Shown here: positions 51,936 through 64,000 of the stretch, one piece after another | Layout: the number at the start of each line of letters is the position of its first letter | How positions within the stretch are numbered: position 1 is the stretch's first letter | Assembly: GCF_036347055.1 (NCBI RefSeq) | Contig: NZ_CP108882.1 | Coordinates: 6,560,001 to 6,624,000, forward strand | Direction of reading: 5' to 3' | DNA length: 64,000 nt | Source of the DNA: Streptomyces sp. NBC_00820 | GTDB taxonomy: Bacteria; Actinomycetota; Actinomycetes; Streptomycetales; Streptomycetaceae | Made by a program: the position numbers and the translations under genes | Notes under the pieces: model-generated | Told to the model about the DNA's origin: nothing | Databases searched by the model: none | What the model saw: only the letters and a program-made list of their open reading frames with translations

Positions 51936-51945
51936 GGTTCATCCA

Positions 51946-51975
51946 GCGGGTGCGGGTGCGGGTGCGGGTGCGGGC
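51946..51975. repeat. GCGGGT hexanucleotide repeat
   Basis: Five consecutive GCGGGT-type units, with similar GCGGAAGCG and GGGTGTGGGT variants to about 52015, fill the gap between the HAD gene and the XRE regulator. Confidence 0.8.
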
Positions 51976-52038
51976 ACGGAAGCGGAAGCGAGCACGGGTG
52001 TGGGTGGGGGTGCGGGGTTCGGCTGCCGGTGGCCGCGG

Positions 52039-53259
52039 TCATCCGGTGGCCGAACCCTCGGCCACCGTGCGCCAGATCTCGGCGGCGAGGTCCGGCATAC
52101 GTGCCTCCTGCACCGCCATCGCCAGCTCCCGCAGCCGGTCCAGGGCCGCGGGGACCTCGGTCCGGGCGTCGAGGAGACCGCGCAGCGCCTCCAGGCGGAC
52201 CCGGTCGCGGTAGGAGAGCAGGCTCGCGCCCTTCTCCGCCCGGCCGCACAGCTCCTCGGCCGCGCTCAGGTCGCCCTTCCGGTAGTGGAGTTGGGCGCGC
52301 AGGAAGAGGAGCTCATGGCGGTGCAGCGGCGATCCGACCAGGTCGACCGCGGATTCGACCGCGTCGAGGTACGCCTCGGCCTCCGCGGCTCGCGGCGGGG
52401 CGGTCTGCAGCGCGAGCGACGCCGCCGCGAGCCGCAGCCGCATCCACAGCGTCAGGTTCTCGTGGCTGTCCAGCGCGGCGAGGGCACGCTGGAGCAGAGC
52501 CGCCGCCCGGGTGTACTCGCCCAGCCGGGTGTGCACGGTCGCGGAGACCCAGAAGGACTCCGCGGCGAGCGCGCCCTCCGTGCGGGACAGCGCGTCGCAC
52601 ACCTCGTCCGCCAGCCGGGCGGCCTCCGCGAGGTTCCCCAACTCGGCCTCGGTGGAAGCCAGCAGCAGCCTGCTGCGCGTCACGTCGGTGTTCGGCACCA
52701 GCAGATGGTGCTGCTCGCTCAGCCGCAGTGCGGTCCGGACGAGCCGGCGGGCCGTGAGCGGGTCTCCGAGGTTGCGCACGGAACGGGCCAGCCGGATGAG
52801 GGCGTGCACCTGGAGCGCGGGGCGTGCCAGTTCGTCACTGAGACGGTGCAACTCCTCGAGGGTGGCGCGCTCTTCCTCGTAGTCGCAGAGCGCACCGTGC
52901 AGCCGGGCCAGCTGGGCCAGTGCCTGCCAGCGGGTCTGCCGGTCGGTGGCGCCGGACTCGGCGAGGGCGCTCTGCAGCATGGTCCGGATCTCGGCGCTCC
53001 GCTCGCTTCCGGAGAGCGTGAACAACGTCGCCAGGACGTCGCTGAGTTCACTCGTCGGCGGCTGTGCGAACGATTCTGCGGGGAGGCCGAGCCGCTCCGC
53101 GAGATACGCGACGGCGCGTGAGGTGGGCGGACGGGCGCCGGACTCCAGGCGCGACAGATAGGTGGCGGACATGCCGGGTCCCGTGAGGTCGGCCTGGGAC
53201 TTGCCCTGCTGTCGCCGCAGTTGTCGCAGACGCCTGCCGAACTCCGGTTGCTCCAGCAT
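52039..53259 (-). CDS. XRE-family regulator with C-terminal TPR repeats
   Basis: A 406-residue protein. Residues about 8-62 are a Cro/C1 HTH (RRLRQLRRQQGKSQADLTGPGMSATYLSRLESGARPPTSRAVAYLAERLGL). The remainder (about 95-400) is a solenoid of TPR-like helix pairs (for example ARRLVRTALRLSEQHHLLVP, AARLADEVCDALSRTEGALAAESFWVSATVHTRLGEYTRAAALLQRALA). HTH plus TPR is the architecture of peptide-binding RRNPP regulators. Directly upstream lies a 50-codon secreted-peptide gene. It probably controls the divergent biosynthetic cluster. Confidence 0.87.
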   Translation of the reverse strand: MLEQPEFGRRLRQLRRQQGKSQADLTGPGMSATYLSRLESGARPPTSRAVAYLAERLGLPAESFAQPPTSELSDVLATLFTLSGSERSAEIRTMLQSALAESGATDRQTRWQALAQLARLHGALCDYEEERATLEELHRLSDELARPALQVHALIRLARSVRNLGDPLTARRLVRTALRLSEQHHLLVPNTDVTRSRLLLASTEAELGNLAEAARLADEVCDALSRTEGALAAESFWVSATVHTRLGEYTRAAALLQRALAALDSHENLTLWMRLRLAAASLALQTAPPRAAEAEAYLDAVESAVDLVGSPLHRHELLFLRAQLHYRKGDLSAAEELCGRAEKGASLLSYRDRVRLEALRGLLDARTEVPAALDRLRELAMAVQEARMPDLAAEIWRTVAEGSATG

Positions 53260-53370
53260 GCACAGTCACCACCCAGTGAAACCTTGTCGTGCGGATGCCG
53301 GCCCCCGGAGCCTCGGGTCCGCGGTTCACGCGGCGACTCGAAGGCCCCCGGGGTATCGCGGCCTCACACG

Positions 53371-53400
53371 TTGGCAACGATTGCCGACTCTTGGGCAAAC
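53371..53400. promoter_or_regulatory. TTGGCAA motif cluster upstream of the XRE-TPR gene
   Basis: TTGGCAACGATTGCCGA (53371-53387) is an inverted repeat of TTGGCAA around CGA with one mismatch, and TTGGGCAAAC follows at 53391. On the minus strand TTGCCA at 53377-53372 also fits a -35 hexamer, with TACCCC 16 bp later. Related TGGCAA copies lie in the peptide/cluster promoter region. Confidence 0.5.
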
Positions 53401-53438
53401 ACCTTACAGCCCCTGAGTTGCCCCGTGATGTACGGGGG

Positions 53439-53591
53439 TCACGGCCAGTCGATCGAGACCTGGGGCGTGGCAGCCGCCTCGGCGTGCGTGACGCCGGCGG
53501 TGCCGACGGCACCGGCGAAAGCCATGACGGCCAGCGTCAGAACGGCCGCGAAGGCCAGACTTCCCATTGTGCGCAGCGTGCGCGTCCTCAT
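53439..53591 (-). CDS. 50-residue secreted pre-peptide (candidate signalling peptide)
   Basis: Reading from ATG at 53591 to TGA at 53439 gives MRTRTLRTMGSLAFAAVLTL as the first 20 residues, a basic start and hydrophobic core of a Sec signal, then AVMAFAGAVGTAGVTHAEAA and the tail TPQVSIDWP. A cleavage after HAEA or HAEAAA would release AATPQVSIDWP or TPQVSIDWP. It lies 180 bp upstream of the TPR regulator on the same strand, as RRNPP pheromone genes lie by their receptors. Codon use is typical of the host. GGAAAG lies about 13 bp before the ATG. The function is inferred from size, signal and position only. Confidence 0.65.
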   Translation of the reverse strand: MRTRTLRTMGSLAFAAVLTLAVMAFAGAVGTAGVTHAEAAATPQVSIDWP

Positions 53592-53686
53592 CGTGTCCAG
53601 CTTTCCGTCAGCGTTTCCCGTGGCACCGCCCCCGTCCTGCCGTAAGCAGTGAGGGGCGCCCCCCTTGGGCCAGTGGATGCGAGGGA

Positions 53687-53715
53687 ACGCTAGGCGCTGA
53701 TCAACGGTCTGGCAA
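53687..53715 (-). promoter_or_regulatory. predicted promoter of the peptide gene
   Basis: On the minus strand TTGCCA (53715-53710), a 17-bp spacer and TAGCGT (53692-53687) form a sigma70-like promoter about 90 bp ahead of the ATG. The -35 hexamer is the complement of a TGGCAA motif copy. Confidence 0.5.
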
Positions 53716-53718
53716 GGG

Positions 53719-53748
53719 TTGACAGTTTTGGCAATCTCTCCGTAGTTT
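53719..53748 (+). promoter_or_regulatory. predicted promoter of the biosynthetic operon
   Basis: TTGACA (53719-53724, consensus -35) and TAGTTT (53743-53748) are 18 bp apart, upstream of malic enzyme at 53807. The spacer contains TTTTGGCAATC, with TGGCAA at 53729-53734. A regulator bound there would block polymerase. The two divergent promoters are back to back, with -35 elements three bp apart. Confidence 0.6.
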
Positions 53749-53806
53749 TCAGCCGATCCGCCGAGGCGACGGCTCGAACCCCTATGTCGCCCCAGACGAA
53801 AGGGCC

Positions 53807-54991
53807 ATGATGGCCAGCCAGTTGGACGGCCCCGCAGTGACCGAGGATCCGGTTCTCGCCTATCACCGGGGCGGCAAGCTCACGGTGTGCGCCACGACGC
53901 CGCTCAAGGACGCCGACGACCTCTCGCTCGCGTACACGCCGGGCGTGGCCAAAGTCTGCACCGAGATCGCACGGCGTCCGGAACTCGCGTACGACTTCAC
54001 CTGGAAGTCCTCGTCGGTGGCCGTCGTCAGCGACGGCACGGCCGTCCTCGGTCTCGGCGACATCGGTCCGGAGGCCTCCCTGCCGGTCATGGAGGGCAAG
54101 GCGATCCTGTTCCGGCAGCTGGCCGGGATCAACGCGGTACCGCTCGTTCTGGACTGCACCGGCGTCGACGAGATCGTCGAGACGGTGGTCCGGCTCGCCC
54201 CGGCCTTCGGTGGCGTCAATCTGGAGGACATCTCGGCGCCCCGCTGCTTCGAGATCGAGCGCAGGCTCCAGGAGCGGCTGGACATCCCTGTCTTCCACGA
54301 CGACCAGCACGGCACGGCGGTCGTCACACTCGCCGCCCTGTGGAACGCGGTCCGGGTGACGGGGCGTCGGTTCGGCGACGTGCGGGCCGTGGTGGCCGGG
54401 GCGGGTGCCTCGGGCGTCGCGGTCGCCAGGATCCTGCTGGACGCGGGCATCGGCGACATCGTGGTGTGCGACAGCAAGGGTGTCGTCCACACGGGGCGGG
54501 ACGACCTGAACCCGGTGAAACGGGCGCTCGCCGCCGACACCAACCGGACGGGGCTCACCGGCACGATCGCCGACGCCATGCGCGGCGCCGACGTCTTCAT
54601 CGGACTGTCCGGCAGTCCCATGGCCGAGGAACCCTTCGCCACGATGGCGCCCGACGCGATCGTCCTGGCGCTGTCCAACCCGGATCCGGAGATCCTGCCC
54701 GGCCGCGCCCAGCGGTACGCGGCCGTCGTGGGAACGGGCCGCTCCGATTTCCCCAACCAGGTCAACAACGTCCTGGCGTTCCCCGGCATCTTCGCCGGAG
54801 CGCTCCGGGTACGGGCCACGCGCATCACCGAGGGGATGAAGCTGGCCGCCGCGAGGGCACTGGCGGACGTGATCGGCGACGAGGCGACCCGCGAGCGGAT
54901 CCTGCCGGACTCCTTCGACGCCCGTGTGGCGCCGGCCGTCGCCGAGGCGGTCGCGGCGGCCGCCCGGGCGGAGGGGACGGCCCGCGCCTGA
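53807..54991 (+). CDS. NAD(P)-dependent malic enzyme-like protein
   Basis: A 394-residue malic enzyme (decarboxylating malate to pyruvate, or a related oxidation). Catalytic/NAD-binding features are the Tyr motif SLAYTPGVAKVC, DIGPEASLPVMEGKA, FHDDQHGTAVVTLAA and VVAGAGASGVAVARILLDAG. It is first in the cluster, downstream of the strong predicted promoter. The start ATGATG at 53807 or 53810 follows AAAGGG. Whether it supplies NADPH/pyruvate or uses a modified malate as substrate is open. Confidence 0.85.
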   Translation: MMASQLDGPAVTEDPVLAYHRGGKLTVCATTPLKDADDLSLAYTPGVAKVCTEIARRPELAYDFTWKSSSVAVVSDGTAVLGLGDIGPEASLPVMEGKAILFRQLAGINAVPLVLDCTGVDEIVETVVRLAPAFGGVNLEDISAPRCFEIERRLQERLDIPVFHDDQHGTAVVTLAALWNAVRVTGRRFGDVRAVVAGAGASGVAVARILLDAGIGDIVVCDSKGVVHTGRDDLNPVKRALAADTNRTGLTGTIADAMRGADVFIGLSGSPMAEEPFATMAPDAIVLALSNPDPEILPGRAQRYAAVVGTGRSDFPNQVNNVLAFPGIFAGALRVRATRITEGMKLAAARALADVIGDEATRERILPDSFDARVAPAVAEAVAAAARAEGTARA

Positions 54992-55331
54992 GCCCCGACC
55001 ACCCGCGTCCGAGCCCCGATCGTACGGCCCCGAGCCCGACCGCCAGGCTCTGAGCCCCGACCCGGCCTCACACCCGCGCCCATCCGTCCCGCGCCCATCC
55101 GCCCCGCGGCCCGAGCATCCGCGGGCCCACGTTTCCGCCGCTCCCCGAGCCTCGCGCGCGCGAGCCCGAGATGCCCATGCCTCCGCCCCCCCCGGGCCTC
55201 GCGCGACGCCGGACCGGCCCGGGCCTCGCCTGACACCGGCCCGGGCCTCGCGCGACACCGGCCCGCGGTGCCCGCGCGTGAGGCCTCCACGACCTGTGCC
55301 CACTGAAGCAACCGAGGAACGAGACACCGTC
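54992..55331. repeat. 340-bp gap with short tandem repeats
   Basis: No gene seen. GAGCCCCGA-type short repeats run at 54989-55060 and CCGGGCCTCGCGCGACACCG-type copies (three, about 22-24 bp) at 55192-55265. The segment probably only links malic enzyme and the adenylosuccinate synthetase, whose ATG is preceded by GAGGAACGAGAC. Confidence 0.65.
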
Positions 55332-56618
55332 ATGACGCTGCACGCTGTCGTCGGCATCAACTGGGGCGACGAGGGGAAGGGCCGGATGATCGACTACCTG
55401 GCCCGGGACGCGGACCTGGTCGTCCGCTACCAGGGCGGGAACAACGCCGGCCACACGGTCATCAACGACCTCGGCACCTTCAAGCTGCGGCTGGTCCCCT
55501 CCGGCATCTTCCAGCCCGGAACCGTCAACGTGATCGGCCCCGGGACCGCCGTCGACCCGGAGTCCCTCGACGGCGAACTCGCCGAGCTGCTGGAGCGCGG
55601 CATCGACACCTCGGGGCTGCTGGTCTCCGACCGTGCCACCGTCGTCTTCCCCTTCCACCGCGACCAGGACGCCTGGGAGGAGGAGCGGCTCGCCGACCGC
55701 CACTTCGGCTCCACCCGCCGGGGCATCGCCCCCGTATACGGCGACCGCCACCTCAAGCGGGCCGTCGTCCTCGGCGAACTGTTCGACGAGGAACTGCTGC
55801 GCGAACGCCTGGCGCCGGTCGTCGAGTGGAAGAACCTCGCGCACGCCACGCTCTACCCCGACCGCCCGGCGATCTCCCTCGACGGCATGGTCAAGTGGGG
55901 GCTGGAGTACGGCAGGCGGCTGCGGCCGTACGTCCGTGACGTCCTCCCCGAACTCGCCGCCGCCGAGCGGCGCGGCGCGCACATCATGTGCGAGGCCCAG
56001 CTCGGCGCGCTCCGCGACATCCTGCACGGGATCTATCCGTACACGACGTCCGCCAGCACCCTCGCCGGCTACGCCCCCGTCGGCTCCGGACTGCCCGGCG
56101 CCCCGCTCGCCCGCGTCACCGGTGTGATGAAGGCGTTCTCCACCTGTGTCGGCGAGGGCCCCTTCGTCACCGAGGAGCACGGCGAGTGGGCCGACGCCCT
56201 GCGGAAGGCCTCGGGGGAGTACGGCGTCAACACCGGCCGGCCGCGCCGCATCGGCCACTTCGACGCCGTCGCCTCCCGCTACGGTGTGCTCCTCCAGGGC
56301 GCCGGCGAACTCGCCCTGACCAAGCTGGACAGCCTCAGCGGGCTGCCCGAGCTGCGGATCTGCACCTCGTACGAGATCGACGGGCGGACCACCGGCGACT
56401 TCCCGCTGACCCATCTCCTCGACCGCGCGCGGCCCCGCTACGAGACCCTGCCCGGCTGGGACGAGGACCTCACCGGCGTACGGGACTTCGCGGAGCTGCC
56501 GCCCGCCGCCGCGGCGTACGTCCTGCGCGTCGAGGAGCTGGTCCGCGCCCGGATCAGGTACGTCTCCGTCGGCCCCGAGCGGGACCAGCTCATCGACCGC
56601 GGTCCGCACGGGTGCTGA
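55332..56618 (+). CDS. adenylosuccinate synthetase-like enzyme (divergent PurA)
   Basis: A 428-residue PurA homologue that in the canonical case couples IMP and Asp with GTP. Asp13 (GDEGKG) and His41 (NNAGHT) are at the usual positions, and the Asp-binding loop NTGRPRR is present. The IMP-contact segment GAQG is changed to EAQLG (220-225), so the canonical Gln224 is Leu, and the GTTGRG loop is GSTRRG. It lies inside a biosynthetic cluster next to malic enzyme and FAD/formyltransferase genes. It could be a neofunctionalised ligase or a self-resistance copy of PurA. Confidence 0.85.
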   Translation: MTLHAVVGINWGDEGKGRMIDYLARDADLVVRYQGGNNAGHTVINDLGTFKLRLVPSGIFQPGTVNVIGPGTAVDPESLDGELAELLERGIDTSGLLVSDRATVVFPFHRDQDAWEEERLADRHFGSTRRGIAPVYGDRHLKRAVVLGELFDEELLRERLAPVVEWKNLAHATLYPDRPAISLDGMVKWGLEYGRRLRPYVRDVLPELAAAERRGAHIMCEAQLGALRDILHGIYPYTTSASTLAGYAPVGSGLPGAPLARVTGVMKAFSTCVGEGPFVTEEHGEWADALRKASGEYGVNTGRPRRIGHFDAVASRYGVLLQGAGELALTKLDSLSGLPELRICTSYEIDGRTTGDFPLTHLLDRARPRYETLPGWDEDLTGVRDFAELPPAAAAYVLRVEELVRARIRYVSVGPERDQLIDRGPHGC

Positions 56619-56691
56619 ACACACGTCCCGCCGGCATCGCCCGCTTCCTGTTCTTCCGTCACGACGAGACGAAAGGCTCGGCCCCACCACC

Positions 56692-58197
56692 ATGTCAGCC
56701 GAAAACGAGATAGTGCCGCCGCCCGGCGCAGCGCACAGGTTCGCGGTCGTGGGCATGGGGGCGACGGGCGTCGGTGTCTTCGTCGCCCTCGTCCGCTCGC
56801 TGGTCGCGGGCGGACGCGCGGCCGGAGCCGAGGTCCACATCTTCGAGACCAAGGAACGCCTCGGCGCCGGCGTCGCCTACAGCACACCCCACGACTGCCA
56901 CCTGCTGAACATGCGCGCCTCCACCATGAGTGTGCACCCCGACGACCCGGACCACTTCGTGCGCTGGCTGTCCGCCCACCCGGGCGCCGGGCCGGCCGTC
57001 GAGAGCGAGTACGTGCCGCGACGGCTGTTCGCCGAGTACCTCCAGGAGTTCTTCGAGGAGGCGCTCGTCGAGGCCCGGCAGTGCGGCATCAAGGTGCGCA
57101 CCCACAAGTCCGTGGTGAGCGACTGCCGCGAGGACGCCCGCGGGGTGCACCTGATCGCGGGACTCGACCACTTCGTCTTCGGCCGGGTCTTCCTGTGCCT
57201 GGGCGACCTGCCCTCCACGGCGTACCTGGAGTTCACCAAGCTCCCCACCTACGTCCACTCCATGTGGCAGGGCGCCGGCCTGGAGACGATCGCCCCGGAC
57301 GCCACCGTCGGCATCCTCGGCACCAGCCTCACCGCCGTGGACGCCCTGCTCCAGCTGCGGGGCGCCGGACACCGGGGCGCCATCACCTGCTTCTCCCGGC
57401 GCCGCGCGCTGCCCAAGGTGCAGGGCCCCAGCGTCCGGTACACCCTGCGGCACGTCACCGAGGAGAATCTGGGCCGGCTCACCGACGGCTTCACCCGGCA
57501 GCTGGAGTTCGCCGAAGTGGCCGAGCTGTTCCGGCGCGAGCTGGAGGACGGACTGGGGCTCGCCATCGACTGGAAGCGGGTGCTGGCCCGGCCCGCGGAA
57601 ACCTTCACGCACACCCTGGCCAGGGACGTCGAGCGCGCCGAGCGGGGCCAGACCCTGTGGTACTCGATCCTCGACGCGACCTCCGAGATCGTCCCGCTGG
57701 TGTGGCGGACCATGTCGGCCGGGGCCCGCGCCTCGTTCATGACCGAGCACCTGTCGATCTGGTCGATGTTCCGCCACTGCATGCCGCTGGACAACGCCCG
57801 CCGCCTCCTCGGCATGGCCACCGACGGAGCGTTCACCGTGGCCAGCGAGCTCTCCGCGGTGTCGTACGACGAGGAGGACGCCGTCTTCCAAGTCTCTGCG
57901 GGCGGCACCACGCACCGCGTGCGCTGGCTGGTCAACGCCACCGGCACCGGCTTCGCCCTGGACTGCAGCGACTCCTCACTGATCCAGAACATGCTGATGC
58001 GCGGCGACATCACCCCGCATCCGCTCGGCGGCATCGACGTCGACTTCGACTCCCTGCGCGTGCTGCGCCGCGACGGCTCGCACTCCGCACGCGCCCACTA
58101 CATCGGTCCCCTCACCCGGGGCGTGCACTTCTACACCAACTCCTTCGAGACGAACCTCGCCAACGCCCACAGCGCCGTGGCCGCGGCGCTGAACTGA
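56692..58197 (+). CDS. FAD/NAD(P)-binding oxidoreductase
   Basis: A 501-residue flavoprotein with an FAD_NAD_binding-type motif (FAVVGMGATGVGVFVALVR) and an NAD(P) motif GILGTSLTAVDALLQLRGAG. Conserved CLGDLPSTAY and C-terminal NATGTGFALDCSDSSL. Related proteins include amine/amino acid N-hydroxylases and oxidoreductases, though the typical ornithine hydroxylase pattern is absent. Given the formyltransferase next door, an N-hydroxylation or other oxidation of an amine precursor is plausible. ATG at 56692 follows GAAAGG. Confidence 0.82.
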   Translation: MSAENEIVPPPGAAHRFAVVGMGATGVGVFVALVRSLVAGGRAAGAEVHIFETKERLGAGVAYSTPHDCHLLNMRASTMSVHPDDPDHFVRWLSAHPGAGPAVESEYVPRRLFAEYLQEFFEEALVEARQCGIKVRTHKSVVSDCREDARGVHLIAGLDHFVFGRVFLCLGDLPSTAYLEFTKLPTYVHSMWQGAGLETIAPDATVGILGTSLTAVDALLQLRGAGHRGAITCFSRRRALPKVQGPSVRYTLRHVTEENLGRLTDGFTRQLEFAEVAELFRRELEDGLGLAIDWKRVLARPAETFTHTLARDVERAERGQTLWYSILDATSEIVPLVWRTMSAGARASFMTEHLSIWSMFRHCMPLDNARRLLGMATDGAFTVASELSAVSYDEEDAVFQVSAGGTTHRVRWLVNATGTGFALDCSDSSLIQNMLMRGDITPHPLGGIDVDFDSLRVLRRDGSHSARAHYIGPLTRGVHFYTNSFETNLANAHSAVAAALN

Positions 58198-58289
58198 GCT
58201 TCCCCACGGCCTGCTTGCGGCCCACCCACGGCCTCACCACGGCCTCACCACGGCCTCCCCGTCCTTCGCACACCGCCAGGAGACCCCTC

Positions 58290-59207
58290 ATGCGCGTGGC
58301 GTTCCTCGTCGGCAACGACCTCACCTCCCACCTCATCGTCGGACAACTCCTCGACGACGTCGTCAGGGCCGGTCACACGCCGTACGTCTGCTACACCCAC
58401 CAGCGGCCCGACCCCGCCGCCGAACCCGAACTGCGCGAGCTGTTCACCTACGAGCGCACCCTGCTCGGCGCCTACGTCCATCCCTACCTCGACAGCCTCC
58501 CGGCTCCGCTGCACGGCGCCCTGCTGTCGCCGGCCGGGATCGCCAAGCTGTACCGCGAGAAGGCGGTCGTCCGCGTCGTCGAGGACGTCAACGCCCCCGA
58601 CTTCATCGCCTACCTGGCCGCACAGGACGTGCGCGCGGCGTTCTCCGTGCGCTGCTACCAGAAGTTCCGCGCACCGCTGATCGACCACTTCCGGCCCGAG
58701 CCCGGCGCCCCCGCCCTCTTCGCCAACCTCCACCCCGGCATCCTTCCCGCCTACCGAGGCGTACTGACCTTCGCCCGCTCCATGCTGCACGGCGAACGCG
58801 AGGCCGGGTTCACCCTGCACCGCGTCAACGAGGAGTGGGACGCGGGAGGGATCGTCTCCGTCGTCACCGCCCCGCTGGACTACGGCCGTTCGGTCCTGGA
58901 GAACATGGCCGGCCAGCGCGGCACGGCCGCGGCGCTGGTGCGCGACGCGATCGAGACCGCCGCCGCCGACGGGAACTGGACGGACCGCCCGCAGGACCTC
59001 GACCAGGCGGGCTACTACTCCCACCTGCGCCGCGCGGACCTCGACGAACTGCACCGCAAGGGCATCGAACTCTGCCGCCCCCGCGCCGTCATCGACCTGC
59101 TCACCGGCGCCTACACACCGCCCGGTTCGCCGGAGCGCCTCGAACTCGGCGGCATTCTCACCGGAGTCACCAGCCGCCGCCCCGACACCGCCGGCGTACC
59201 GGCCTGA
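58290..59207 (+). CDS. formyltransferase family protein
   Basis: A 305-residue enzyme of the GART/methionyl-tRNA formyltransferase fold. The catalytic triad is Asn146, His148 (NLHPGILPAYRG) and Asp184 (EWDAGG), all present, so an active formyl transfer from N10-formyl-THF is likely. The N-terminal VAFLVGNDLTSHLIVGQLL is the Rossmann part. It would formylate an amine or hydroxylamine of the pathway intermediate. GCCAGGAGAC precedes the ATG; the longer frame upstream crosses the FAD gene and is not used. Confidence 0.86.
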   Translation: MRVAFLVGNDLTSHLIVGQLLDDVVRAGHTPYVCYTHQRPDPAAEPELRELFTYERTLLGAYVHPYLDSLPAPLHGALLSPAGIAKLYREKAVVRVVEDVNAPDFIAYLAAQDVRAAFSVRCYQKFRAPLIDHFRPEPGAPALFANLHPGILPAYRGVLTFARSMLHGEREAGFTLHRVNEEWDAGGIVSVVTAPLDYGRSVLENMAGQRGTAAALVRDAIETAAADGNWTDRPQDLDQAGYYSHLRRADLDELHRKGIELCRPRAVIDLLTGAYTPPGSPERLELGGILTGVTSRRPDTAGVPA

Positions 59208-59239
59208 CCCCGTCGACGACCCCAACGAAAGGACACGCC

Positions 59240-60310
59240 ATGGCCCTCGACCGTGACGAGATCGTGCAGACCGTCAGCGAGATCTGGGAGGAACTCCTCG
59301 ACGTCGACGTCGACGAGGACGACGACTTCTTCGACCTTGGCGGCTACTCACTGCTCATCGTCAACGTCGTCACCGAGGCCCGCAAGCGCGGTCTGGAACT
59401 CTCGGCGAACGACATCTACACCCACAAGACCCCGGCCGGCCTGGCCGACGCGCTGAGCGCGCAGGCGGCCCCGGCCGACGGCCCGGCGGACCCCGACTTC
59501 AGCACCGTCTGGGAGAGCGGCCTCAGCCCCCTCGGGACCGAGCCGTCGGCGACGCTCGTCCGCCTCGCGGAGGGCACCGGCACGCCCGTGTTCACCTTCC
59601 ACTGGGGCACCGGCAACGTCCGCTTCATGGGCGGTCTCGTCGACTCCTTCCGCGGTGAACGGCCTGTGTACGGGCTGGAGATGGTCGGCATGTGGAGCCG
59701 CGAACGGCCCGCGCTGTCCCTGGTCGAGATGGCCTCCCGCTACCTGCGCGAGATCCGTACCGTGCAGCCCGAGGGCCCGTACCTCTTCGTCGGACCGTGC
59801 GCCGGTGGCCGCATCGCCTACGAGATCGGCCGCCAACTGGAGGAGCGCGGCGAGGAGGTCGCCGTGCTCGCCGTGGTCAACACCATGCCGCCCGGCACCA
59901 CCGAGCTGGACGCCGCATGGGGCCTGCGCGAGCTGTACGAGTTCCGGCTCGCCGCCCTGCGCGAGCGATTCGGCGTACCGGACCTGCTGACCGACACCGA
60001 ACGCCTGATGCGCGGCATGGCCGAGATCGCCTGGCTCGACGAGGGAGTCGACCCGGCCGACCTGCACTGGCGGCAGGCGGTGTGGGCCGCCGGCATCTTC
60101 GCCCAGGAGCACTACGAGCCGCGCCCGTACGGCGGTGAGGTCACCGTCTTCCAACTGGCCGAGCACGCCGACCGCCCCGAGGCCGACTGGGGCCGGGTCG
60201 CCGCCGCCACCGAGACGCACACCTACGAGTCGCAGGGCACGCTGCCGCTGCTGCGCGATGCCTCCTTCGCCCAGGACCTCGCCAAGAAGCTCGCCGCGTA
60301 CGCGGGCTGA
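59240..60310 (+). CDS. carrier protein-thioesterase didomain with Cys nucleophile
   Basis: A 356-residue protein. Residues about 1-75 are a phosphopantetheine carrier (LGGYSLLIVN, Ser37) and residues about 100-350 a thioesterase. The nucleophile motif is GPCAGG, with Cys187 replacing Ser; after strand 6 the usual Asp is Asn214 (VVNTMPP), and His327 is the probable base. Cys thioesterases in other NRPS clusters make strained rings such as beta-lactones or beta-lactams. GAAAGG lies before the ATG. The next gene (MFS) is 34 bp downstream. Confidence 0.85.
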   Translation: MALDRDEIVQTVSEIWEELLDVDVDEDDDFFDLGGYSLLIVNVVTEARKRGLELSANDIYTHKTPAGLADALSAQAAPADGPADPDFSTVWESGLSPLGTEPSATLVRLAEGTGTPVFTFHWGTGNVRFMGGLVDSFRGERPVYGLEMVGMWSRERPALSLVEMASRYLREIRTVQPEGPYLFVGPCAGGRIAYEIGRQLEERGEEVAVLAVVNTMPPGTTELDAAWGLRELYEFRLAALRERFGVPDLLTDTERLMRGMAEIAWLDEGVDPADLHWRQAVWAAGIFAQEHYEPRPYGGEVTVFQLAEHADRPEADWGRVAAATETHTYESQGTLPLLRDASFAQDLAKKLAAYAG

Positions 60311-60344
60311 ACGCCGACAACCCCCCAACCGAGGTGAATTGACA

Positions 60345-61637
60345 GTGGCAGGCAACAGGGTCGTGACGGCCGTCCGCGGCTGGGCCTCCGAGACGGTGCC
60401 GGCTCCCGGGCCGGCCCGCGGGCTGGCCGTGCTGGCCGTGGTGCAGTCCGTCGGCTTCGGCCTCTTCCTCAGCTCCAGCGCCATCTTCTTCCGCCGGTCC
60501 GTCGGACTGACCGCCGGACAGGTCGGCCTCGGGCTCTCCGTCGCCGGGCTCGCCGGACTGCTGTGCACCGTGCCGATCGGCAGGCTCGCCGACCGCTACG
60601 GCGCGCGCGGCCCGTTGCTCGTCCTCTACGCCGCCCTGGCGGTGCTGTTCACCGGCTACTGCGCGGTCGGCGGCTTCGCCGGATTCGTAGCCCTCGCCTG
60701 CGCGATCTCCGTGTGCGAGACGTCCTCGCACCCGCTGCGGATGACGCTCACCCACGAGGTGTTCGAGGCGGAGGCCCGGGTACGGGTCAGCGCCCAGATG
60801 CGGTCCCTGTTCAACCTCGGCTTCATGCTCGGCGCGGCGGCGGCGGGCGGGGCGCTCGCGGCCGGCGGCCGGGACGCCTTCGTCGCGGTGATCCTGCTGA
60901 CGGCCGCCGCGCACGCCTGCTGCGCCGTGCTGACCGGCAGAATGCCTGGGCGGCCCGCGGAGCCGCTCCCCGAACCTGCGCAGGGCGCGAAGAAGCGGTC
61001 CGGTCTGCGCGACGTCCGGTACGTCACGCTGGCCCTGCTGTGCGGCGTACTGGAGCTCTACCAGCCCATTCTCACCGTCGCGCTGCCGCTGTGGATCATC
61101 GGCCGTACGCATGCCCCCGGTGCCGTCAACTCCGTGCTGCTGATGCTCGACACGGTGCTCGTGATCGTCTTCCAGGTGACCGCGAGCCGGGGGGCCGACA
61201 CCGCGTCCGGTGCCGCCCGGCTGCTGCGCCGCTCCGGAATCCTGCTCGCCGTCTGCTGTCTGGTGTTCGCGCTCACCCAGGGCACGGGCGCGCTGGTCGC
61301 CGTACCGCTGCTGCTGCTCGGCACGGCGGTCCTGGTGCTCGGCGAACTCGGTCAGGCGGCCGGCTCCTGGGGGCTGTCCCTGCATCTGCCGCCGCCCGGC
61401 CGGCAGGGCGAGTACCAGGGCGTGTTCGCCCTCGGCCGCGGCCTGCAGCAGACCGCGGGGCCCTACCTGGTCACCGTGCTCGCGGTGGGGCAGGGGCGGC
61501 TCGGCTGGACGGCCCTCGCCGTCCTGCTCCTCCTGGCGGGCCTCGCCTGCCCGCCGCTGGCCCGGGCGGCGGAGAAGGCACGGGCCGGTGACGCGAACGC
61601 GGACGCGGCCCGCCCGGCCGAGCCCGTCGCGTCCTGA
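60345..61637 (+). CDS. MFS transporter
   Basis: A 430-residue transporter of about 12 helices. The signature GRLADRYGARGPLLVLYA lies between helices 2 and 3. The GTG at 60345 has GAGGTGA 8 bp upstream. It is between the carrier-thioesterase and NRPS genes, so is probably the dedicated exporter of the pathway product. The TTG at 60339 is an alternative start. Confidence 0.85.
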   Translation: MAGNRVVTAVRGWASETVPAPGPARGLAVLAVVQSVGFGLFLSSSAIFFRRSVGLTAGQVGLGLSVAGLAGLLCTVPIGRLADRYGARGPLLVLYAALAVLFTGYCAVGGFAGFVALACAISVCETSSHPLRMTLTHEVFEAEARVRVSAQMRSLFNLGFMLGAAAAGGALAAGGRDAFVAVILLTAAAHACCAVLTGRMPGRPAEPLPEPAQGAKKRSGLRDVRYVTLALLCGVLELYQPILTVALPLWIIGRTHAPGAVNSVLLMLDTVLVIVFQVTASRGADTASGAARLLRRSGILLAVCCLVFALTQGTGALVAVPLLLLGTAVLVLGELGQAAGSWGLSLHLPPPGRQGEYQGVFALGRGLQQTAGPYLVTVLAVGQGRLGWTALAVLLLLAGLACPPLARAAEKARAGDANADAARPAEPVAS

Positions 61638-61740
61638 CCTGACCCGGGGTCACCCCTCTTCCCACCGCTGTCGCCGCCGCTGCCGATCCGATCCCGCCTC
61701 AGCCATCGCTGTCGCCCCCTCCACGGACGAGAGAGAACGC

Positions 61741-64000
61741 ATGCAATCCTCCCCGCGCCGGACCGACGCGGCCCTGCCCGATCCCCAGGGCGCCTCGGTG
61801 CACGGCATCTTCTCCGCGCACGCGACGGCCACCCCCGACGCGGTGTGCCTCGTCGAGGACGGGACAACCGTCACCTACGGCCTCCTCGACCGCGCCTCGG
61901 ACGCCTACGCCGTCCACCTCGCGGACCTCGGTGTCGGCCCCGGGGACCTCGTGCCGGTCCGGCTCCCGCGCGGGACGGAACTCGTCGCCACCGTGCTCGC
62001 CGTGCTCAAGCTGGGGGCGGCCTACGCGCTGGTCGACGCGGCGTGGCCACCCGCCCGGGTCGCGGACGTGCTGGAACAGCTCGACGCCCGCGTCCTCGTG
62101 GACGGTACGGACCCGAACCCGAACCCGGACCCGGACCCGGACCCGGACAGGGACCCGGACCCGGTGCGCGGCGGTGTCGTCCGCTGGACCCCGCCTCCCG
62201 GCGGCCTGACCGCCGTCGACGGCCAGGGCGCCGGCTTCCGGCCGGTGACGGCCGGCGGTGGCGACCCCTGCTGCGTGTTCTTCACCTCCGGCACCACCGG
62301 CCGCCCCAAGGGCGTGCTCACCCCGCACCGCGCGACCGTACGCCTGTTCCGGCCCCACGACGCCGTCGCCCGCTTCCACGCCGGCACCGTGATGCCGCAG
62401 GCCGCGCCGGTGCCGTGGGACGGCTACTCGCTGGAGTTGTGGTCGGTGCTCCTCAACGGCGGCACCTCCGTCGTCGTACCGGAGCCGTATCTGACGCCCG
62501 GCGCCCTGCGGTCGGGCATCGCCCGGCACGGCGTCGACACGGTCTGGCTGACCGCCAGCCTGTTCAACATGATCGTGGACGAGGACCCCGACGCCTTCGA
62601 CGGCCTCACCCAGGTCATGACCGGCGGGGAACGGCTCTCCGTGCCCCACGTCCGCCGGTTCCTCGGCCGGCACCCGGACATCGCGCTCATCAACGGCTAC
62701 GGCCCGGTCGAGAGCACCGTCTTCGCCACCACCCACCACGTCCGCCCCGAGGACTGCGACCGCCCCGGCGGCATCCCGATCGGCCGCCCGGTGCCCGACA
62801 CGCGGATCCACGTCCTCGACGGCGACCGGGTCTGCGCCGCCGGAGAGACGGGCGAGGTGTGCATCGCGGGGCACGGACTCGCGTTGCGCTACCTGGGGCG
62901 ACCCGAACTGACCGCCGAGAGGTTCACCGAGGTGGACGTCGACGGCACACCGGTGCGCGTCTACCGCACCGGCGACCTCGCCGCCCGGGACGAGGGCGGG
63001 CTGCTGCACTACCTCGGCCGCGCGGACCGGCAGGTCAAGATACGCGGCCACCGCGTCGAACCGGCCGAGGTGGAGCGCCAGATCGAGGCACTGCTGCCGG
63101 CCGTGCGCCGGGCCACCGTGCTCGCCCTGCGCGACGAGGCCGGCGCCTGCCGGGGACTCGCCGCGTTCTGCGTCCCGGAGCACCCGGGCGACCGGCTCGA
63201 CGGCGCCCTGGAGACGGTACGCGCGGCCCTGGTGTCGTATCACCGCCCCGAGCACCTCCTCGGCGTCGACGCCCTTCCCCTGACCGGCAACGGCAAGCTG
63301 GACGAGCGGGCGCTGCTGGCGCTGCTGCCGAGCCCGCGGGACGACGAGGAAGCGGCCCCGGACACGCTCCGGACGCCGAGGAGCGGCGACCGGCCCGGCG
63401 ACCTCTCCGACCCCGGCGGCCACCTCGGGCACATGCACTTCACCGACCTCGTCGCCGGTGTCTTCGCCGACGTCCTCGGCCGGTCCCGCGTGCCCGTCGA
63501 CGCCGAGTTCACCGCGCTCGGCGGGACCTCGCTGGCCGCGGGCCGGGTGTGTGCCCGGCTGAGCGCGCGGCTCGCCCGCCCGGTACCGCTGGCCGAACTG
63601 TTCGCGCACCCCACGGCCGCCGCGCTCGCCGCACGGCTGGCGCACGACCCCGAGCCGGCCGACGTGCCCACGGCCGGCCAGGCGCCGGACGACGTGCCCA
63701 CGGCCGGGCAGGCGCCGGACGACGTGCCCCTCACCGCCGTGCAGACGGGCTTCCTCATCCGCCAACTCCTCGAACCCGACGACCGGTCCGGACACTGCCT
63801 CGCCGCCTGGACCCTCGACGGCGCCCTCGACCGCGAGGCGCTCACCGGGGCCCTCGCCGACGTGCACACCCGGCACCACGCGCTGCACTCCTCCTACCGC
63901 ACCCAGCGAGCGCGCGCCTTCGCGGTCCCGGGCGGCACCCCGCCGCCCGTGCCTGCCGAACTCCCCGCCGAACCTTCGGCGCAGGCCGCGCTCGCCGCCG
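61741..64000 (+). CDS. non-ribosomal peptide synthetase, partial (A-T-C...)
   Basis: The first 753 codons run off the window. Residues about 20-520 are an adenylation domain (TSGTTGRPKG near 182, GYGPVEST, RTGDLAARD, IRGHRVEPAEVE), followed by a carrier domain (FTALGGTSLAA, Ser597) and, from about 660, a condensation domain (PLTAVQTGFLIRQLL). An Asp-Pro hexanucleotide repeat (62107-62165) is inserted in the A domain. A near-perfect 30-bp duplication (63661-63720; VPTAGQAPDD) is in the linker. As it starts with A-T it could be an initiation module. A-domain substrate not predicted. Confidence 0.9.
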   Translation, partial: MQSSPRRTDAALPDPQGASVHGIFSAHATATPDAVCLVEDGTTVTYGLLDRASDAYAVHLADLGVGPGDLVPVRLPRGTELVATVLAVLKLGAAYALVDAAWPPARVADVLEQLDARVLVDGTDPNPNPDPDPDPDRDPDPVRGGVVRWTPPPGGLTAVDGQGAGFRPVTAGGGDPCCVFFTSGTTGRPKGVLTPHRATVRLFRPHDAVARFHAGTVMPQAAPVPWDGYSLELWSVLLNGGTSVVVPEPYLTPGALRSGIARHGVDTVWLTASLFNMIVDEDPDAFDGLTQVMTGGERLSVPHVRRFLGRHPDIALINGYGPVESTVFATTHHVRPEDCDRPGGIPIGRPVPDTRIHVLDGDRVCAAGETGEVCIAGHGLALRYLGRPELTAERFTEVDVDGTPVRVYRTGDLAARDEGGLLHYLGRADRQVKIRGHRVEPAEVERQIEALLPAVRRATVLALRDEAGACRGLAAFCVPEHPGDRLDGALETVRAALVSYHRPEHLLGVDALPLTGNGKLDERALLALLPSPRDDEEAAPDTLRTPRSGDRPGDLSDPGGHLGHMHFTDLVAGVFADVLGRSRVPVDAEFTALGGTSLAAGRVCARLSARLARPVPLAELFAHPTAAALAARLAHDPEPADVPTAGQAPDDVPTAGQAPDDVPLTAVQTGFLIRQLLEPDDRSGHCLAAWTLDGALDREALTGALADVHTRHHALHSSYRTQRARAFAVPGGTPPPVPAELPAEPSAQAALAA

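Follow-up and report, generated by a model that had tools for sequence, protein, structure and literature searches.

PapR, the partner of the receptor PlcR, is a small secreted precursor of ~50 amino acids (aa), the C-terminus of which is the signal. In the Rgg-SHP and ComR-ComS systems, the receptor adjoins the peptide gene and controls neighbouring genes; Rap, the receptor of the Rap-Phr pairs, is not itself a helix-turn-helix (HTH) DNA binder. In Streptomyces, gamma-butyrolactone systems of the ArpA/AfsA type use a small-molecule signal and a TetR-type receptor, and in the XRE-DUF397 pairs the small partner is a DUF397 protein. Small molecules have been described as the typical signals of Actinomycetota, and the scope of a large RRNPP survey is Firmicutes and viruses (PMC10075063); the word RRNPP is absent from the main text of a review of actinobacterial quorum sensing (PMC4748050). 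The locus described here lies in a 64-kb stretch (the window; 71.7% GC) of the 8.1-Mb genome of Streptomyces sp. NBC_00820. It combines a 50-codon open reading frame (ORF) with a gene for an HTH and tetratricopeptide repeat (TPR) regulator, beside a divergent operon that includes a non-ribosomal peptide synthetase (NRPS) gene, and is likely to be a short-peptide cell-to-cell signalling circuit working like the DNA-binding RRNPP systems.

The peptide gene and its conserved C-terminal end

In the order of transcription on the minus strand, the 50-codon ORF (53591 to 53439) is followed by a gap of 179 nt between its stop codon and the start of the regulator gene (53259 to 52039).

53439..53591, minus strand: putative pre-pheromone gene of 50 codons, with a signal-peptide-like N-terminus and the tail ...ATPQVSIDWP (from the sequence and relatives)
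53442..53453, minus strand: codons for the conserved C-terminal tetrapeptide I-D-W-P, the stop codon being 53439-53441 (from conservation in relatives)
52039..53259, minus strand: receptor-regulator of 406 aa with an XRE-type HTH (residues ~6-66) and TPR repeats (~70-406) (from Pfam, AlphaFold2 (AF2) and PDB matches)

This arrangement bears out the initial annotation, which had placed a 50-codon gene ending in SIDWP before an XRE-TPR regulator on the same strand. The GC content at third codon positions of the ORF is 0.86, and its best hydrophobic 12-mer has a Kyte-Doolittle mean of 2.58. The N-terminus resembles a Sec signal, and export is predicted. The Pfam search placed the 50-aa protein in no family; hence, the pair does not correspond to the XRE-DUF397 type. 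When the genome was searched at the DNA level for [ILV]-[D/E]-W-P followed by TRR, with a pattern that omits CTG and GTG codons, two sites were found in 8.1 Mb, and only the one at this locus is stop-ended. The reversed control of the pattern gave 7 and 9 sites.

The regulator contains HTH_31 at residues 6-62 and TPR_2, each over the Pfam cut-off. An N-terminal HTH followed by a C-terminal TPR part within ~250-500 aa is the layout of the DNA-binding RRNPP receptors. Residues conserved in the regulator include R159, R162, W237, R245, W272, R274 and R276. At E<=0.001 the regulator is the sole family match in its own genome among the best 30 of 40 first-look candidates, and a relative is present in Streptomyces sp. 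NBC_00620.

The first relatives found (L001, L003 and L004, with regulators 68, 56 and 50% identical) each have a small same-strand ORF directly upstream, which includes a hydrophobic stretch and ends in IDWP, IDWP and IEWP, respectively. When 392 genomes of the genus were searched (E<=1e-60), at least 74 matching places were found in 64 genomes. In this search, as in those at the family and class levels, four candidates were scored per genome (30 at most in the own genome), and the family sizes are therefore lower bounds. The flanks of the genus matches and a few further hits yielded 77 recognised regulators; the frame counts omit the near-copy L061, the second half-gene L130 and the duplicate copy L131. 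With both strands scanned for small ORFs, the 1700 nt preceding each of 74 regulators contain 1543 frames in all, of which 38 end in [ILVM][DE]WP; none of 3402 control frames, taken from more distant upstream positions or from downstream, has such an end. Once internal motifs and more distant genes were counted, and the half-gene L129 was also dropped, the motif was present at 45 of 72 loci. Seven of these (L089, L095, L100, L102, L106, L108 and L134) were added by a search for internal or shifted motifs at the motif-free regulators, and none of the remaining regulators gained a nearby motif by that search.

A further set of ten regulators was gathered only after the hypothesis had been fixed. 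It came from a search of 394 genomes of the family (E<=1e-80) with at least 14 matches, 4 of them known before; the new members show 49-59% identity, and five are from four other genera. A same-strand ORF ending in I[DE]WP, with its stop codon 106-201 nt before the regulator, was found in eight of the ten and in four of the five that belong to other genera. These ten and a 14-member clade in the regulator tree (support 100/99) form a set of 24 close relatives that includes the window and leaves out the near-copy L061. Nineteen of the 24 possess a same-strand ORF ending in I[DE]WP at the equivalent place, and 18 of the 23 other than the window thus have an adjacent short hydrophobic precursor gene. 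The initial annotation had suggested checking whether the 50-codon gene is conserved next to homologous regulators; it proved to be, both within the set and out of sample.

All 19 precursors contain a 12-residue stretch with a mean hydropathy of 2.20-2.80. Counted from the C-terminus, P, W and I are each present in 19 of 19, and the third position is D in 16 and E in 3. Position -5 is mixed, with S the most common residue (5/19), and before it there is only a preference for alanine at -10 and -11 (11/19 and 10/19). The peptides of L001 and L066 are only 28% and 35% identical to that of the window. As judged by these sequences, the conserved part of the precursors is the last four residues only, and this C-terminal end would be the signal.

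In all motif copies taken together, the proline codons are CCC (27), CCG (32), CCA (1) and CCT (1), and the stops following motif copies are TGA (22), TAA (12) and TAG (6); the motif codons vary and the motif residues are constant. Such amino-acid conservation with synonymous changes bears on the possibility that the ORF preceding the regulator is a leader, an attenuator or a chance frame, as its shortness and its position directly upstream on the same strand might suggest. The opposite orientation in sister clades (see below), the absence of the motif from the 3402 control frames and the occurrence of a single such end in the whole genome likewise disagree with that explanation, which is hardly credible. 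The leader-peptide and chance-frame readings were rejected on the grounds of the orientation and the control counts.

Alternatively, the small gene could encode a secreted effector or a precursor of a ribosomally synthesised and post-translationally modified peptide made by the cluster, the HTH-TPR protein being an ordinary pathway regulator with a different ligand or signal. The peptide is indeed secreted-looking and adjoins a biosynthetic cluster, and TPR proteins bind many ligands. However, the same tetrapeptide end is found beside regulators with quite different neighbours, little is conserved outside the last four residues, and the peptides have no meaningful match to a Pfam or NCBIfam model. 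The peptide tracks the regulator, not one cluster type, and this alternative is improbable.

Predicted operators and promoters, and the proposed circuit

Two copies of a predicted operator flank the peptide gene, and the distal copy lies within the region from which the peptide gene and the operon diverge.

53373..53398, minus strand: predicted operator copy between the peptide gene and the regulator, TTGCC-N8-GGCAA-N3-TTGCC (pattern search)
53711..53734, minus strand: predicted operator copy between the peptide gene and the divergent operon, TTGCC-N6-GTCAA-N3-TTGCC (pattern search)
53687..53715, minus strand: probable peptide-gene promoter, TTGCCA, 17 nt, TAGCGT, its -35 box being the last operator half-site (from the sequence)
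53719..53748, plus strand: probable operon promoter, TTGACA, 18 nt, TAGTTT, overlapping the operator at 53711-53734 (by eye)

The pattern TTGCC-N5-9-GNCAA-N3-TTGCC occurs at exactly two sites in the 8.1-Mb genome, both at this locus; the reversed control gave 0 and 0. The common TGGCAA motifs pointed out in the initial annotation proved to be part of this pattern, and the 6-mer is present in 67 of 73 upstream regions of family regulators versus 16 of 73 coding stretches. A looser form, TTG[CA]C-N5-9-G[GT]CAA-N3-TTG[CA]C, precedes 10 of 73 regulators, with no occurrence in 73 coding or downstream stretches or in 50 shuffles. Within the window clade, the looser form is present in 16 of 24 members (hand count) and the inner inverted pair G[GT]CAA-N3-TTG[CA]C in 18 of 24. 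The operator occurs twice, once before each gene, in the window, L001, L080, L171, L174 and L175.

Thirteen operator sites lie >250 nt upstream of the regulator, i.e. before the peptide gene, including that of L172, which lacks the peptide gene. In 12 of these 13 distal sites TA[GC]NNT follows the half-site TTGCCN by 17-18 nt (shuffled mean 0.13, maximum 2), and at that spacing it follows 0 of 12 regulator-proximal sites; hence the peptide gene probably has the last half-site of the distal operator as its -35 box. The GTCAA half-site of the window, read on the other strand, gives the TTGACA of the operon with TAGTTT 18 nt further on. Control of both the peptide gene and the operon by the regulator via the common operator pair is suggested by this arrangement.

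The gene pair, the conserved end, the operators, the common promoter region and the fold class are established at the level of sequence. In the circuit proposed from them, the 50-aa precursor would be exported and trimmed to a short peptide, predicted in the initial annotation as a tail of ~9-11 residues, and the essential part of the peptide would be the C-terminal I-D-W-P carboxylate. The peptide would re-enter the cell, probably via an Opp/Dpp-type transporter (the genome has 11 matches to SBP_bac_5, the Opp/Dpp-type binding protein, over the cut-off), and bind within the groove formed by the TPR repeats of the neighbouring regulator. This HTH-TPR protein would act at two operators, one before its own gene and one common to the peptide-gene and NRPS-operon promoters. 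As the peptide accumulated with growth, its binding to the regulator would release (or activate) the peptide gene and the cluster at the same time; the operator at which the regulator is predicted to act is common to both promoters, so that the peptide would govern its own production as well as cluster expression. Repression lifted by the peptide is favoured, since the operator overlaps both -35 boxes; activation, by a protein bound next to the -35 box, is nearly as possible.

Sister clades, fold and relation to known systems

In the sister clades, genes with [ILV][DE]WP on the opposite strand are frequent, and their distribution is patchy. The first set includes 29 loci with a precursor that is not on the same strand, 27 of them upstream on the opposite strand and two ~4 kb away. 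Two or three motif copies are present in the precursors at 14 of 45 loci (L069, L071, L089, L094, L095, L096, L098, L100, L102, L105, L106, L108, L116 and L118), among which L116 and L118, on deeper branches, have the same-strand, exported form with two copies. Some multi-copy precursors have residues after the last copy, and processing after proline would therefore be needed. Several signal copies, in some cases with C-terminal extensions, are also described for Rap-Phr precursors (PMC11343458); the window precursor differs from these in having one copy. At L116 (genome G216), two related regulators in opposite orientation share one locus, and only one has the same-strand upstream two-motif precursor.

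A signal-peptide-like segment was recognised in 15 of 16 same-strand precursors, and the 16th, that of L116, has one with a longer start. Given the patchy distribution and the fewer exported-looking precursors in the sister clades, the same-strand, exported, one-motif form is, by these sequences, a trait of the window clade and a few deeper branches (L121, L124 and L126). With the automatic choice of start codons, 11 of the 29 precursors not on the same strand look exported. The opposite-strand motif ORFs with no evident signal peptide at the automatic start include those of L065, L067, L068, L070, L072, L088, L101, L104, L110, L113-L115, L128 and L134, among others; those at L065, L067, L068, L070 and L072 lie beyond a carrier-domain-like motif.

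Several observations weigh against the proposed circuit. A signal-peptide-like segment was not recognised in 18 of the 29 precursors, again with automatic starts. They would suit an explanation in which the peptide acts within the producing cell as a co-regulator of the HTH-TPR protein, with no export, and is not a cell-to-cell signal. The signal segment of the same-strand precursors, L116 included, and the hydrophobic segment in 19 of 19 precursors of the window clade argue to the contrary, and an intracellular role is regarded as unlikely. The peptide gene was not found at 5 of the 24 close members (L078, L079, L081, L172 and L179), nor the exact operator in 8 of 24. A strict sigma-70 promoter scan gave no match at the locus, where the back-to-back promoters of the initial annotation are probable -35/-10 pairs on both strands over one operator. 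Among the neighbouring genes, none of the Opp type was recognised. The search at the class level (394 genomes) gave at least 11 genomes with a match and at least 14 places, and the motif was within 1.5 kb at one of nine previously unseen places; wider flanks (7 stretches) added two motif places, both in one genome and ~7 kb from its two regulator copies. Regulator relatives are present in 37 plasmid records, and a motif-ended frame was found in one of the nine regions read, with a sequence identical to L088; in phage records regulator relatives were not found.

The structural comparisons are in part of the same kind. The AF2 model of the regulator, built from an alignment of two sequences only (the window and L001), consists of helical repeats with a predicted local distance difference test score of 83.8. 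In a Foldseek search, the PlcR-PapR7-DNA complex (3u3w) was first by E-value (3.2e-6), at only 15% identity and a TM-score of 0.35. PlcR and Rgg were absent among the best 50 matches of a second structure comparison, which excludes nothing, and generic or unrelated TPR proteins there score as high as RRNPP chains. In sequence-based comparison with the PDB, the regulator profile is best matched, over residues 83-181, by a designed helical protein, and the match to PlcR covers the HTH only. Searches of Pfam and NCBIfam with the TPR part gave no known RRNPP or Rgg-type receptor profile; at the E-values used, the matches of the regulator are to generic HTH/TPR-type families, with weak HTH matches to RamB and RstR. 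The modelled fold is compatible with RRNPP but not decisive. Without an RRNPP profile match over its TPR part, the regulator is grouped with RRNPP by its proposed way of working and is not counted as a proven family member. The RRNPP-like circuit of the initial annotation thus holds for the way of working, with a conserved peptide gene and a common operator, and descent from receptors of Bacillota is supported for the HTH only.

Like PlcR-PapR, the locus has an HTH and TPR receptor beside an exported-looking precursor of ~50 aa, but the peptide ends in IDWP and the operators are of the TTGCC/GGCAA type instead of the PlcR box. The HTH of the window regulator is similar to that of ComR and of a second regulator chain, presumably Rgg; the Rgg-SHP and ComR-ComS systems differ in their Bacillota hosts and in their peptide motifs. 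Population signalling that controls biosynthetic clusters is shared with the gamma-butyrolactone systems, whereas a gene-encoded peptide and an HTH-TPR receptor would serve here.

No paper on such a system in Streptomyces, as judged by titles and abstract starts, and none joining 'IDWP' with Streptomyces was found in the open-licence part of PubMed Central, preprints excluded; a published account elsewhere is possible. The system appears to represent a new branch of quorum sensing by peptides as known from Bacillus and Streptococcus, and an RRNPP-like pheromone circuit of Streptomycetaceae is in our judgement a probable identity for it. If so, peptide receptors of RRNPP design would be at work in a second phylum, and a widespread, gene-encoded and cheaply synthesised signal would stand beside NRPS clusters, its inducing effect being testable with short peptides. 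The tetrapeptide motif is near-invariant across genera and multiplied in some precursors. More tentatively, and with the balance of probability against it, I[DE]WP-ended peptides may serve as a chemical language common to Streptomycetaceae, with a large HTH-TPR family, spread with many NRPS and other clusters, as its readers. In that case, the addition of a single synthetic peptide could activate silent clusters across many species.

The biosynthetic operon and gene neighbourhoods

As proposed in the initial annotation, a biosynthetic operon diverges beside the gene pair; it begins at 53807 and includes an NRPS with adenylation (A), carrier (T) and condensation (C) domains.

53807..54991, plus strand: malic-enzyme-like protein, first gene of the divergent operon (PF00390, PF03949)
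55332..56618, plus strand: PurA-like protein (PF00709)
56692..58197, plus strand: FAD/NAD(P)-binding protein (PF13454)
58272..59207, plus strand: formyltransferase-like protein (PF00551)
59402..60310, plus strand: thioesterase protein (PF00975), preceded by a carrier domain seen by eye only
60354..61637, plus strand: major facilitator superfamily (MFS) transporter (PF07690)
61690..64000, plus strand: NRPS with A-T-C domains, its start approximate, continuing past the window to 64971 (PF00501, PF00550, PF00668)

Beyond the window, the NRPS is followed by a stand-alone A domain and an FAD oxidoreductase. In the nearest relatives, L001/L061 and L066 (regulators 68 and 78% identical), the operon is retained beside the regulator and peptide genes at 78-89% identity, and circuit and cluster thus travel together; the malic-enzyme-like homologues beside the L066 and L001 regulators are 86% and 81% identical. 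Other relatives adjoin other clusters, often of the NRPS type by motif, with adenylation-motif matches at 23 of 72 loci (hand count). This association is not used as proof, because there is no formal background rate; the NRPS of the window begins beyond the stretch that was counted, and the window itself therefore scores no adenylation motif.

Downstream of the window regulator, on the same strand, are genes for a haloacid dehalogenase (HAD)-type hydrolase and an MFS transporter. At L126 (genome G102), a family member stands beside 71-73% identical homologues of the HAD hydrolase, MFS transporter and FAD oxidoreductase of the window, together with a different NRPS, in a mosaic cluster.

The operon region (from 53807 to 61637 and, outside the window, as far as 68036) holds a second PurA, the genome total being two, along with the formyltransferase and the FAD protein. 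It may be speculated that the second PurA is a self-resistant copy for a product inhibiting adenylosuccinate synthetase, for example a hadacidin-like N-formyl-N-hydroxy acid. A short simple repeat of the GTGCGG type occupies ~51945-52020, between the HAD gene and the stop codon of the regulator.
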